NCBI RefSeq assembly: GCF_947494015.1
Contig: NZ_CANLTL010000005.1
Span: 1 to 64,000 of the forward strand
Direction: 5' to 3'
Origin: an uncultured Cellulomonas sp.
GTDB taxonomy: Bacteria; Actinomycetota; Actinomycetes; Actinomycetales; Cellulomonadaceae
Length of the DNA: 64,000 nucleotides
Numbering within the stretch: the stretch's first letter is position 1; every line of letters starts with the position of its first letter. A program made the translations under genes and the position numbers. Shown here one piece after another: positions 1 through 57,866 of the stretch. The notes under the pieces were generated by a model. The model was not told the origin of the DNA, did no database searches, and was given only the letters and a program-made list of their open reading frames with translations.

Positions 1-86
1 GTCCCATTCCGAACCCGGAAGCTAAGCCCCTCAGCGCCGATGGTACTGCACGGGAGACTGTGTGGGAGAGTAGGTCGCCGCCGGAC
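1..86 (+). rRNA. rrf: 5S ribosomal RNA, 3' part
   Basis: The window opens inside a 5S rRNA. The conserved core GAACCCGGAAGCTAAGCCC, the loop CGATGGTACTGC and the 3' helix ending GTCGCCGCCGGAC are all visible. The first third or so of the gene lies outside the window. The rest of the rRNA operon (16S, 23S) is presumably upstream. The 3' end is placed by analogy with other actinobacterial 5S genes. Confidence 0.93.
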
Positions 87-100
87 AACCATTCACGAAA

Positions 101-130
101 AGAGCCACCCCACCCGGGGTGGCTCTTTTC
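101..130 (+). terminator. Intrinsic terminator of the rRNA operon
   Basis: An 11-bp perfect stem (AGAGCCACCCC at 101-111, GGGGTGGCTCT at 116-126) with a 4-nt loop is followed by a T-rich tail (TTTTCTTTTA). It lies 15 nt after the 5S rRNA, as expected for the end of the rRNA transcript. Confidence 0.93.
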
Positions 131-280: not shown

Positions 281-691
281 GACTGCGACATTGTGGACCC
301 ATCCACGGCCGTGAACGGGCCACAACGACGCACCCGACCGACTCTCTGCGCCGAGTGCGACGTTCCGGACCACTCGTGGGGCGTGAACGGTCCACAACGT
401 CACACTCGACCGGCTCTCTGCGCCGAGTGCGACGTTCCGGACCACTCGTGGGACGTGAACCGTCCACAACGTCGCACTCGACCGACTCTCTGCGCCGGGT
501 GCGACGTTCTGGACCACTTCTGGGGCGTGAACGGTCGACAACGTCACACTCGACCGACTCTCTGCGCCGAGTGCGACGTTCTGGACCACTCGTGGGACGT
601 GAACCGTCCACAACGTCACACCCGACCCGTGTCCCACGGTGCGACGTTCCGGACCACTCGTGGGACGTGAGCGGTCCACGACGTCGCACTC
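281..691. repeat. Tandem array of six 55-nt palindromic repeats, 72-bp period (array A)
   Basis: Six copies of a 55-nt imperfect palindrome lie at 281-335, 353-407, 425-479, 497-551, 569-623 and 637-691. The first five start exactly 72 bp apart; the last follows after 68 bp. Left arms resemble GAGTGCGACGTTCTGGACC and right arms GGTCCACAACGTCGCACTC, with about 17 nt between them. Linkers are near-identical 17-mers (GACCGACTCTCTGCGCC), shortened to 13 nt before the last copy. The array sits between the rRNA terminator and the 3' end of the convergent glgB gene. Open frames crossing it follow the repeat and are not genes. 131-280 holds nothing I can recognise. Related copies occur at 48434-48776, 52948-53002 and 57812-57866. 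Confidence 0.9.
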
Positions 692-845: not shown

Positions 846-3059
846 TCAGGTGATCGTCGGCGGGACGTCGTCGTCGTCGCGCACGAGGAGGAGCGCGCCG
901 AGCGGGGGGACCCGCAGGCGGACCGAGAACGGCCGGCCGGCCCATGGGACCGGCTCGGCGTGCACCGCCCCGAGGTTGCCCACTCCGGAGCCACCGTAGG
1001 TCTCGGAGTCGGTGTTGAGGATCTCCCGCCAGCGCCCACCGGCCGGCAGCGGCAGGCGGTAGCCCTCGTGCGGGGTTCCGGCGAAGTTCACCACGACGAC
1101 CACCTCGCTGCCGTCGTCCCCGCGGCGCAGGTAGGAGAGCACGTTGTGGCCGGCGTCGTCGGAGACGATCCACTCGAAGCCCGCGGGGGAGTGGTCCTGC
1201 GACCACAGCGCCGGGTAGGCCCGGTAGGTGCTGTTCAGGTCGTGCAGCAGCCGTTGGACGCCGGCGTGACCCGGGTCGTCGAGCTCGTGCCAGCTCAGGC
1301 TCCGGCCCTCGGCCCACTCCCCGGACTGCGCCCACTCGCTGCCCATGAACAGCAGCTGCTTGCCGGGGTGCGTCCACTGGTAGGCGAGCAGGGACCGGAC
1401 GCCGGCCAGCTTCTGCCACTGGTCGCCGGGCATCTTGCCCAGCAGCGAGCCCTTGCCGTGCACGACCTCGTCGTGGCTGATCGGCAGGACGAACTGCTCG
1501 GAGAACGCGTACACCAGGGAGAACGTGATCTCGTGGTGGTGGTAGCGACGGTTGATCGGCTCCTCGGCCAGGTAGCGCAGGGTGTCGTTCATCCACCCCA
1601 TGTTCCACTTCAGGCCGAAGCCCAGACCGTTCGCGTCGGTCGGGGCGGTCACGCCCGGGAACGCCGTCGACTCCTCGGCGATCATCATCACGCCCGGGGT
1701 GCGGCGGTACGCCGTCGCGTTGGCCTCCTGGAGGAACGAGATCGCCTCGAGGTTCTCGCGCCCGCCGTACTGGTTCGGGCTCCACTGGCCATGGCCGCGG
1801 GAGTAGTCCAGGTAGAGCATCGAGGCGACCGCGTCGACGCGCAGGGCGTCGATGTGGAACTCCTCGAACCAGTACGTCGCGTTCGCGACGAGGAAGTTGC
1901 GGACCTCGCGCCGGCCGAAGTCGAACACGTAGGTGCCCCAGTCCGGCTGCTCGCCGCGGTTCGGGTCCGGGTGCTCGTACAACGGTGTGCCGTCGAACCG
2001 ACCGAGCGCCCACTCGTCCTTGGGGAAGTGCGCCGGCACCCAATCCAGGATCACGCCGATGCCCGCCTGGTGCAGGGAGTCGACCAGGTACCGGAAGTCG
2101 TCCGGGTGACCGAAGCGTGACGTCGGCGCGTAGTAGGAGGAGACCTGGTAGCCCCACGAGCCGCCGAACGGGTGCTCGGCGACCGGCAGCAGCTCCACGT
2201 GGGTGAAGCCGAGGGACAGCACGTACTCGGTCAGCTCCGTGGCGAGGTCCCGGTAGCTCAGCCCCTGACGCCAGGAGCCGAGGTGGACCTCGTACACGCT
2301 CATCGGCCCCGAGTGCGGGTCCGTGGACTGCCGGGTGGCGATCCACTCGTCGTCCGACCACTCGTGCCGGGTGTCGATCACGACGGACGCGGTCGCCGGG
2401 GGCAGCTCGGTGCCCTTGGCCAGCGGGTCCGCCTTCTCCCGCCAGGTGCCGTCGCGGCCCAGGATCTGGAACTTGTACCGCTCGCCCGCGCCGACGCCCG
2501 GCACGAACAGCTCCCACACCCCCGATCCGCCGAGGGTACGCAGCGCGTGGGTCGCCCCCTGCCAGTGGTTGAAGTCGCCGACGACCCGGACCGACCGGGC
2601 GTTGGGCGCCCACACCGCGAAGGAGGTGCCGGTGACCTCACCCATGACGCTGGGGAAAGTGCGCAGGTTGGCGCCCAGCACCTTCCACAGCTCCTCGTGG
2701 CGCCCCTCGGTGATCAGGTGCAGGTCCAGCTCGCCGATGGTCGGCAGGAACCGGTACGGGTCGTCCACGGTCGAGGTGTGGTCCCCGTAGGTGACCTCGA
2801 CCCGGTAGTCGGGGACGTCGACGCCGTCGAGCGTCGCCTCCCAGATCCCGTCCTGGACGTGCTCGGCCTCGCTGCGCGAGTCCGGGGTCACCACGACGAC
2901 GGAGTCCGCCATCGGGCGGGTGACCCGGATGACGACGTGGTCGCCCTCGACGTGCGGGCCCAGCACCCGGTGCGGGTCGCCGTGGGTGCCGCCGGCCACG
3001 GCCGCCAGCTCGGGCGACCGCGCAGGCGGCTCGGTCGGTGTTGTCAGGTCGCTGTCCAT
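846..3059 (-). CDS. glgB: 1,4-alpha-glucan branching enzyme GlgB
   Basis: GlgB cuts alpha-1,4 chains and re-attaches them as alpha-1,6 branches on glycogen-like glucan (GH13_9). The 737 residues match the usual length. N-terminal CBM48-type beta-sandwich sequence (about 20-230) leads into the catalytic barrel. Region I is DWVPAHF near residue 339, region II is DALRVDAV with the nucleophile Asp409, region III is IAEES with Glu462, and region IV is [14 protein letters not shown]. It is the last gene of glgE-treS-pep2-glgB, 58 bp after pep2, and would branch the linear glucan made by GlgE. The ATG start leaves the N-terminal domain intact. A hairpin at 751-799 lies beyond its stop. Identification is secure. 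Confidence 0.97.
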
Positions 3060-48379: not shown

Positions 48380-48433
48380 CCCCGGCGCCCCCGGGCGCCC
48401 CGCACGCCCCCGGGTGCCCCGCACCACCCCGCC

Positions 48434-48776
48434 GAGTGCGACCTTGTGGACCCTTCACGCGAGCTGAGCGGTCCGCAAGGTCGCACTCGTGCGTCCGGGC
48501 CCGCCGAGTGTGACGTTGTGGCCGTTTCGCGCGAGCTGAGCGGTCCGCAAGGTCGCACTCGTGCGTCCGGGCCTGCCGAGTGCGACGTTGTGGGCGTTTC
48601 GCGCGAGCTGAGCGGTCCGCAAGGTCGCACTCGTGCGTCCGGGCCTGCCGAGTGTGACGTTGTGGGCGTTTCGCGCGAGCTGAGCGGTCCGCAAGGTCGC
48701 ACTCGTGCGTCCGGGCCTGCCGAGTGCGACGTTGTCGGCGTTTCGCGCGAGCTGAACGGTCCGAGACGTCGCACTC
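48434..48776. repeat. Tandem array of five 55-nt palindromic repeats, exact 72-bp period (array B)
   Basis: Copies lie at 48434-48488, 48506-48560, 48578-48632, 48650-48704 and 48722-48776. Each is 55 nt and each linker is 17 nt (GTGCGTCCGGGCCTGCC with one change). The outer arms GAGTGCGAC and GTCGCACTC match array A at 281-691, but the centre (about TTTCGCGCGAGCTGAGC) and the linkers differ from array A. The first copy has compensating changes in the stem (CTTG with CAAG). The array fills the gap between convergent ilvC and the YihY-like gene. The remainder of the gap (48380-48433 and 48777-48843) is low-complexity GC-rich sequence. Frames across the array are not genes. Confidence 0.92.
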
Positions 48777-48843
48777 GGCGCGCGGGGTGGGCGCGCGGGG
48801 TGGGCGCGCGGGGTGGGGCGAGGCGGGGGGCCGGGTTGGAGGG

Positions 48844-52947: not shown

Positions 52948-53002
52948 GAGTGCGACGTTCTCCACCGCTCGGCGCCCGCGACGGGTCCACGAGGTCGCAC
53001 TG
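52948..53002. repeat. Single 55-nt palindromic repeat (copy C)
   Basis: This copy keeps the outer arms (GAGTGCGAC at the left, GTCGCACTG at the right) and the exact 55-nt length of the repeats in arrays A and B. Its centre is diverged. It stands alone 47 bp after ilvE. Confidence 0.8.
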
Positions 53003-57726: not shown

Positions 57727-57798
57727 GTCAAGGAGCCTTGACAGCGGTGCGGGTGACAAGACTCCTTGACACCTACTCCACTGTCAAGCGTCCTTGAC
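57727..57798. promoter_or_regulatory. Three operator-like palindromes at exact 28-bp spacing
   Basis: GTCAAGGAGCCTTGAC (57727-57742), GACAAGACTCCTTGAC (57755-57770) and GTCAAGCGTCCTTGAC (57783-57798) are 16-bp sites with consensus GtCAAGnntCCTTGAC. Starts are exactly 28 bp apart. They lie 58-129 bp upstream of the CPBP gene, which begins the XRE-containing operon. The two outer sites are symmetric in their seven-base arms (the first perfectly, the third with one mismatch pair). The TTGAC ends resemble -35 boxes on both strands, so binding could occlude a promoter. Identity of the binding protein is inference. Confidence 0.75.
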
Positions 57799-57811
57799 CC
57801 TCTCGTCTCGC

Positions 57812-57866
57812 GAGTGCGACCTCGTGGACCGTTCGCGGGCCCGGAACGGACCGGGACGTCGCACTC
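57812..57866. repeat. Single 55-nt palindromic repeat (copy D)
   Basis: Again exactly 55 nt, with left arm GAGTGCGACCTCGTGGACC and right arm ending GTCGCACTC. It lies 13 bp from the last of the three operator-like sites and 62 bp from the 3' end of the yggS gene. It is the fourth locus of this repeat family in the window. Confidence 0.82.

Follow-up and report, generated by a model that had tools for sequence, protein, structure and literature searches.

The window, a stretch of 64,000 nucleotides (64 kb) from the 4.28-Mb genome of an uncultured Cellulomonas sp. (G000), opens with the 3' part of a 5S rRNA gene. Six palindromic units of 55 nt (array A, span 281-691) are found between the terminator that follows this gene and the convergent glgB gene. 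Units of the same type occur at three other places of the window, and the features are as follows.

1..86, plus strand: 5S rRNA, 3' part (context)
97..130, plus strand: intrinsic terminator, downstream of the 5S rRNA (context, outside the repeat family)
281..335, plus strand: unit A1, diverged (75% to the reference copy over 59 nt)
353..407, plus strand: unit A2
425..479, plus strand: unit A3, best match of the covariance model R1 (81.9 bits)
497..551, plus strand: unit A4
569..623, plus strand: unit A5
637..691, plus strand: unit A6, 68 bp after A5, with a shorter linker
846..3059, minus strand: glgB (context, convergent with the rRNA operon)
48434..48776, plus strand: array B, five units, period 72, linker unlike that of array A
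52948..53002, plus strand: single unit; the genes on either side, class IV aminotransferase-like and LeuA-like, are in tandem
57812..57866, plus strand: single unit, 3' of an alanine-racemase-like gene; both adjoining genes on the minus strand

An earlier note on this DNA had described array A as six 55-nt units starting at 281, 353, 425, 497, 569 and 637, repeated every 72 bp and separated by near-identical 17-nt linkers. All six units were found again on re-reading. The 72-bp period holds for the first four steps, but the last step is of 68 bp; similarly, four linkers are of 17 nt (the same in three cases, altered at one position in another), but the fifth is of 13 nt. The count of 13 units at four loci (281-691, 48434-48776, 52948-53002, 57812-57866) and the location of array A between the rRNA terminator and glgB were both correct. 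A CRISPR had been discarded, and rightly so, as the linkers within an array are near-identical and no differing spacers are present. Of the 19 arm positions, 14-16 pair in the units of array A, and 13-18 over the 13 window units. The units stand above chance, as indicated by the Tandem Repeats Finder score (557) and by the excess of half-sites over shuffled sequences (35 matches with at most two mismatches in the window vs 13.3 +/- 3.5 in 100 shuffles).

Array B lies in a gap flanked by two convergent genes, ketol-acid reductoisomerase-like and BrkB-like, and is directly followed by a 13-bp tandem repeat (48777-48831). A 22-bp inverted repeat (751-799, 95% complementary, 5-nt loop), unrelated to the units, is located between array A and glgB. 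Repeated operator-like TGTCAAG/CTTGACA boxes are found at 57735-57800, in the gap preceding an Rce1-like gene. The boxes are kept in C. aerilata, much of the surrounding gap being diverged.

A dispersed family of palindromic units

The units had been taken for members of one dispersed, maintained REP-like family, and a whole-genome search with a covariance model had been proposed. The search revealed many further intergenic copies, and the family is dispersed as supposed. A model of the window units gave at least 136 matches in G000 (both strands counted, E<=0.001), from which at least 69 units were read out at about 35 intergenic places; the 69 include a weak unit (L064:190) and the same stretch twice, at the ends of contigs C21 and C27. 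The congener C. aerilata (G003) hosts 67 model matches, and at least 27 units were read out. Among the other 37 relatives searched with the model, matches were found in seven, at most 11 in each. C. aerilata was the only match of the strict unit pattern in the collection of named genomes, which may omit the window's own genome. A phage or plasmid origin of the units was rejected on the 0 matches of the strict pattern in viral contigs and the lack of matches of array A in plasmids. An assembly artefact is ruled out, since units are found at orthologous loci of another species. Units stand at the ends of the G000 contigs C11, C17, C18, C21 and C27, and may therefore break the assembly. Contig C9 starts with two units bearing the linker of array A (278-408), and perhaps follows another rRNA operon.

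The unit is a dyad of two inverted half-sites of about 23 bp, and measures 61 bp with its conserved ends. Among the 95 distinct units of G000 and C. aerilata, 93 fit a single ungapped 59-nt frame, with the arm letters aligned at both ends; L061:547 and L058:3037 feature a length change of 1-2 nt. Zero gaps were introduced by MAFFT among 84 units aligned over 61 columns, eight near-identical array copies and the diverged unit L064:190 having been left out. In this alignment unit ends are symmetric (GCCGAG...CTCGGC), and no GTAG or CGTC unpaired tag is present at the unit end. Invariant letters stand in six columns (G8, C12, C21 and the mirror positions of these); variation is free in the others. 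Many G000 arrays share the 72-bp step and differ in their linkers; steps such as 82, 94 and 144 are also seen.

The constant length of 55 nt, noted earlier for the window units, is a property of the subfamily found in G000 and C. aerilata; relatives carry versions of 48-71 nt. In these, found in other Cellulomonas species and in G013, a genome of another genus, the outer half-site is GCCGAGTGYGACG or close to it, and inner parts are different. The 13-mer GCCGAGTGYGACG is present, counting both strands, 52 times in G000, 41 in G003, 24 in G004, 81 in G013, 10 in G001 and 6 in G002, and 0-9 times in the rest of 121 family genomes. G013 half-sites form arrays with steps of 21-22 bp. Weak model matches with similar dyads (L095 and L096, 36.5 and 35.2 bits) were noticed in G036, which belongs to another family, and are possibly a further repeat family of like kind.

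No units were found inside genes in G000. The 28 scorable gaps hosting units are convergent (15) or tandem (13), and none is divergent; array A and six further loci adjoin contig edges, and their orientation could not be scored. Set against unit-free gaps of at least 75 bp from the same stretches, convergent gaps are in excess (15/28 vs 2/63, Fisher p=6.5e-8) and divergent gaps are avoided (0/28 vs 20/63, p=2.5e-4). In C. aerilata 5 of 14 gaps with units are convergent, 8 are tandem and one, adjoining the endonuclease gene described below, is divergent. The intergenic location anticipated in the earlier note is borne out, and the enrichment between convergent genes is strong in G000 and weaker in C. 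aerilata (convergent, 5/14 vs 1/21, p=0.028; divergent, 1/14 vs 6/21, p=0.20). Gene calls for gaps, orthology and flank tests were all made by a simple script of our own, trained on the window.

The location 3' of genes raises the question of whether the units are hairpins or bidirectional terminators selected as RNA, the association with a gene described below being secondary. Strong hairpins are predicted for four units, one of which was folded on both strands (z -4.4 to -12.3), and in some units, such as L056 and L047, both arms have changed in step. Column pairs were analysed in 91 distinct units, after dropping L069 (a duplicate of L066 due to contig overlap), L061:547 and L058:3037. Columns 14/46 pair above independence (55 vs 40.0 expected), and overall arm pairing shows a modest excess over shuffles (83.4% vs 82.1%). 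In contrast, pairing is no higher than expected at columns 15/45 (37 vs 36.5) and 16/44 (39 vs 45.1), and at the latter A-C mismatches, disfavoured under RNA selection, are as common as G-T ones (27 vs 24). A terminator scan, weak as a test since it is limited to loops of up to 8 nt, gave no call in the six units of array A, and no T-run was seen by eye in the 12 nt following the units read out. RNA covariation is weak as a driver, and selection as RNA appears improbable. Given the behaviour of these two column pairs inside the arms, the units seem to be constrained chiefly in the letters of a double-stranded DNA dyad.

Nine unit loci occupy well-supported orthologous places in G000 and C. aerilata, and a tenth is less sure; spread is accordingly not recent. 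Eight orthologous pairs were compared, taking one end unit per pair at loci with several units. Outer arms are identical at 180/192 positions (94%) and inner arms at 74/80, centres at 63/136 (46%) and the 50-bp flanks, gaps allowed, at 509/800 (64%). The ninth pair (L066/L073) was left out, as its orthology is supported by one gene only, which does not adjoin the unit; with it totals become 204/216, 83/90, 73/153 and 566/900, respectively. The arms are held while centre and flanks drift. Copy number differs between the species, five units at window position 48432 corresponding to one clear unit in C. aerilata (L076:3064). No clean empty site was found, and the C. aerilata gap matching window position 57812 is too diverged to be aligned around the unit.

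An endonuclease-like gene flanked by units

A single-copy gene located outside the window (G000:C18:480-1379) lies between arrays of the same units. Being outside, it was missed in the earlier note, which considered the window only. At E<=0.001, PF04480 (DUF559) is matched once in G000 and once in C. aerilata; the two genes are orthologues, 76% identical, and both are found between units. Units are present upstream of the gene in both species. The gene is near FliS/FliD-type genes in the two loci (L064, L070), the other side being occupied in C. aerilata by a flagellar rod-type gene. In G013 half-site arrays are found on both sides of a homologous gene encoding 302 aa (38% identity, pairwise E=4e-48), missed by PF04480. 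The G013 gene is at a different chromosomal place, as its neighbours encode AdoHcyase and an ABC transporter, instead of the flagellar genes found elsewhere.

PF04480 genes of G001, G002, G004, G012, G013, G023, G321 and G333 are not adjoined by clear G000-type units, the best matches being L145 (G002, 20 bits, E 0.0067) and L142 (16 bits). These genes belong to other subfamilies, and one may ask whether each carries its own palindrome. Two weak dyads (20 and 17 bits) are found at L145:466-612, near an AbiEi/DUF559-type gene that otherwise fails the flank test described below. G001 and G004 keep 10 and 24 half-sites but lack a close homologue, G001 having none and G004 a distant one (1.9e-16), which indicates that sites can persist without the gene. 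Units in these two genomes vary in length, as if decaying. Gene loss after spread would explain the G001 and G004 half-sites, as the varied lengths suggest.

The AlphaFold model of the protein has a mean pLDDT of 94.8, obtained with 27 sequences. The N-terminal part is predicted to be AbiEi-like, with a winged helix plus the antitoxin fold, and Foldseek matched the model to Rv2827c, an AbiEi-family antitoxin (E 5.7e-5, TM 0.42). The C-terminal part is predicted to be a nuclease of the Vsr/EDxHD homing-endonuclease type, and matched the I-Bth0305I catalytic domain (3r3p) over about 100 columns (E about 1e-3, TM 0.79-0.81 by target length). Sequence profiles gave weak matches to PvuRts1I (E 8e-4) and I-Bth0305I (E 0.0011). 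Among the 27 members, 25 match PADLOC AbiEi, 24 MTES_1575, 15 DUF559 and 10 AbiEi_1 at E<=0.01. E196, D229, E240, D242, G243 and R258 are present in 27/27 members, H246 in 22/27 and D255 in 19/27 (7 feature E); the mapping of the EDxHD residues E, D, H and D onto E196, D229, H246 and D255 is our own assignment.

Both predicted parts have relatives that recognize DNA sites comparable in size to the unit. Rv2827c recognizes 23-bp inverted repeats in pairs separated by 13 bp (PMC7319586), which by our own sum of these figures makes a site of 59 bp; half-sites are here of about 23 bp. For I-Bth0305I, a review (PMC3943268) gives dimerisation on a target nearly 60 bp long. The closeness of these sites to the 61-bp dyad favours binding by a dimer, and a dyad of two inverted half-sites would suit two protomers of one protein. 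Unlike I-Bth0305I, the gene described here is free-standing between palindromes, the protein has an AbiEi-like N-terminal part, and sites are dispersed through the chromosome. Unlike AbiEi and Rv2827c, type IV antitoxins to which the N-terminal fold and the Pfam and PADLOC matches point, the protein features a fused nuclease domain, and sites are genome-wide rather than at one promoter. Moreover, no AbiEii-type toxin gene was recognised among eight neighbours examined in G000, G003 and G013. All but two of these neighbours are flagellar, AdoHcyase or ABC-transporter genes; the two lack Pfam matches, an ABC ATPase matches PF13304 at a sub-threshold level, and the G000 scan is one-sided, as the contig edge hides the other side of the gene.

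Palindromes might be fixed binding sites of the AbiEi-type protein, serving chromosome organisation, transcription barriers at gene ends or self-regulation, with a nuclease rarely active or directed against foreign DNA; an ancient spread would in this case have been followed by domestication. Such a reading agrees with the near-identity of outer arms at orthologous places and with the lack of divergent gaps among the 28 scored in G000. It agrees also with the presence, in both species, of units preceding the endonuclease gene, at the place where self-regulation of the kind described for AbiEi and Rv2827c, acting through inverted repeats (PMC7319586), would be exerted. Bracketing on both sides, and the patchy, lineage-specific and sometimes gene-only palindromes reported below, look instead like a mobile unit, and fixed sites are regarded as the unlikely, though most serious, alternative.

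Units had also been suggested to be the substrate of a RAYT, the Y1-type transposase associated with REPs. This idea did not survive the search for such a gene: PF01797 (Y1_Tnp) has 0 matches in G000 (control matches, 5/14). That a classical REP/REPIN family was moved by a RAYT since lost, or located elsewhere, is scarcely credible. Units are dispersed, intergenic and placed 3' of genes as published REPs (PMC3733652), but are 55-61 nt long, vs 20-40 for REPs according to the same text, lack the unpaired GTAG/CGTC end tag, and have a gene for another enzyme in the position of RAYT. Since transposase and end tag were both looked for and are absent, the family is not a member of the REP-RAYT group.

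Resemblances are nevertheless evident. As in the REP/REPIN-RAYT elements called REPtrons (PMC3733652, PMC8266576 and PMC3116915), short dispersed palindromes are located 3' of genes, the enzyme gene is flanked by them, and the two diverge together; as for REPs, G000 units are intergenic, between convergent or tandem genes only. In contrast, the enzyme is here predicted to be AbiEi-like with a Vsr/EDxHD-type nuclease, and not an HUH Y1 transposase, and the unit is a long double-sided site devoid of the GTAG/CGTC tag. CGTC-tagged REPs are closer in one respect, as they are reported in PMC3733652 as apparently lacking a dedicated transposase. The same text assigns them mainly to alpha-Proteobacteria, and the word "actinobacteria" occurs in it 0 times; unlike them, the units have no tag at one unpaired end.

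Genes and palindromes in other lineages

A three-member profile (E<=1e-15) identified homologues of the endonuclease-like gene, present in 157 of the 200 genomes searched in the family. At many of the 30 best homologue loci, lineage-specific repeats are found on both sides of the gene. Upstream and downstream 800-bp regions were compared for similarity at 26 of these loci (L179, at a contig end, and L177, L180 and L182, with short flanks, were dropped before the test) and at 119 control genes, mostly from Cellulomonas loci, for which the 95th percentile is 43. Homologues differ from controls at p=9e-10 (Mann-Whitney), a value optimistic because the loci are related. The control 95th percentile is exceeded by 21/26 homologues, and by 18/23 when G000, G003 and G013, the genomes that gave the bracketing idea, are set aside; 20/26 score at least 46, and 21/26 at least 44. 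Six places were tested outside the family, in Tsukamurella, Arthrobacter and Nonomuraea records, gene limits being estimated for three of them. Five pass with scores of 52-87, and Nonomuraea L218 (33) is below threshold. A palindrome scan showed that the repeat is a palindrome on both sides at L216, L217 and L221, and on one side at L219.

Palindromes differ from lineage to lineage. Dyads of 61 bp with another half-site are found in G321 and G137; GCCGAGKSGCACSTT is present in 21 copies in G321, in 3 copies, only beside the gene, in G137, and in 0 copies in 8 other genomes. The sequence TGAGAGWGCRATCC, taken from the flanks of the gene in one clade, occurs in all eight genomes with a close homologue (21, 8, 123, 21, 62, 147, 4 and 65 copies, range 4-147, both strands and gene-side copies included). 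It has 0 copies in eight congeners, picked for a weaker best homologue (E 1e-16 to 1e-25 where listed), and in two outgroups, and the control gave 0. The eight positive genomes may be one clade, and the counts are without phylogenetic control. Outside the family, a 56-nt Tsukamurella palindrome is found at 18 places (both strands) in 7 records of that species, and the best place in each record falls under no gene listed in a gene table which is incomplete. A 57-nt palindrome of Arthrobacter StoSoilB13 is found at 42 places, both strands, in two unannotated replicons; the palindrome of Arthrobacter ERGS1:01 is found at 4 places only. Palindromes and proteins co-diverge, as measured at 27 of 33 loci (Mantel Spearman 0.44, 0/2000 permutations), the other six being left out for want of a scorable palindrome. 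A second, distant DUF559 gene of G013 (L153:956-1927) is flanked on both sides by an identical 53-nt stretch, which includes a 42-nt perfect palindrome starting right after the called stop codon.

DUF559-type genes might merely tend toward repeat-rich intergenic places, the pairing being due to chance or hitch-hiking. Loci within a clade are not independent, and 5/26 homologues (L175, L178 and L183, below the control median; L169 and L173, at 43) fail the flank test, along with 1/6 of the places outside the family. Against this, only 5/119 controls are above threshold, two of them being DUF559 genes, the dispersal of the motif tracks the gene (8/8 vs 0/8), and repeats and proteins diverge together. 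Such an origin of the pairing is held very improbable.

A candidate two-part system

A link between palindrome and gene is highly probable. The explanation favoured, with some reserve, is that units are the non-autonomous sites of a two-part system, in which a palindrome and a cognate endonuclease of the AbiEi/DUF559 type are associated as in REPtrons, the enzyme not being a RAYT. The computed support consists of the dispersal and 3'-intergenic placement of the units, the constrained arms, the bracketing seen in many lineages, the co-divergence, and the joint occurrence of gene and palindrome in the genomes tested. Chances are about even that palindromes were spread by the endonuclease itself. 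In this event the protein would cut DNA, and repair would copy the palindrome into the break, so that spread would be like that of REP/RAYT or homing elements, by other chemistry. Bound sites may then have been kept. Unequal exchange would lengthen tandem arrays such as array A by 72 bp (unit plus linker) at each step. A unit placed at a 3' end can also form a fold in RNA, with stabilisation or termination of transcripts as a possible by-product.

A broader proposal is made more tentatively, at slightly worse than even chances. Actinomycetota proteins combining DUF559/MTES_1575 and AbiEi-type parts may be an unrecognised class of palindrome-mobilising enzymes, in which the gene is bracketed by a long palindrome proper to each lineage, dozens to over a hundred copies of which would have been seeded at gene ends by homing-like cut-and-repair, without a transposase. 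No description of the pairing of a palindrome with an AbiEi/DUF559-type endonuclease was found in the open-access literature.

REP-like palindromes are widespread, and to our knowledge RAYT is the only enzyme tied to their spread. Bracketing, co-divergence and co-occurrence suggest that a second solution to the REP problem exists. Array A would be an outpost of this mobile-like system, which may account for assembly breaks at several arrays. The pairing also suggests a testable job for the functionally unassigned DUF559/MTES_1575 family with an AbiEi-like N-terminus, and the candidate DNA site of a family member may be read directly from the flanks of its gene.
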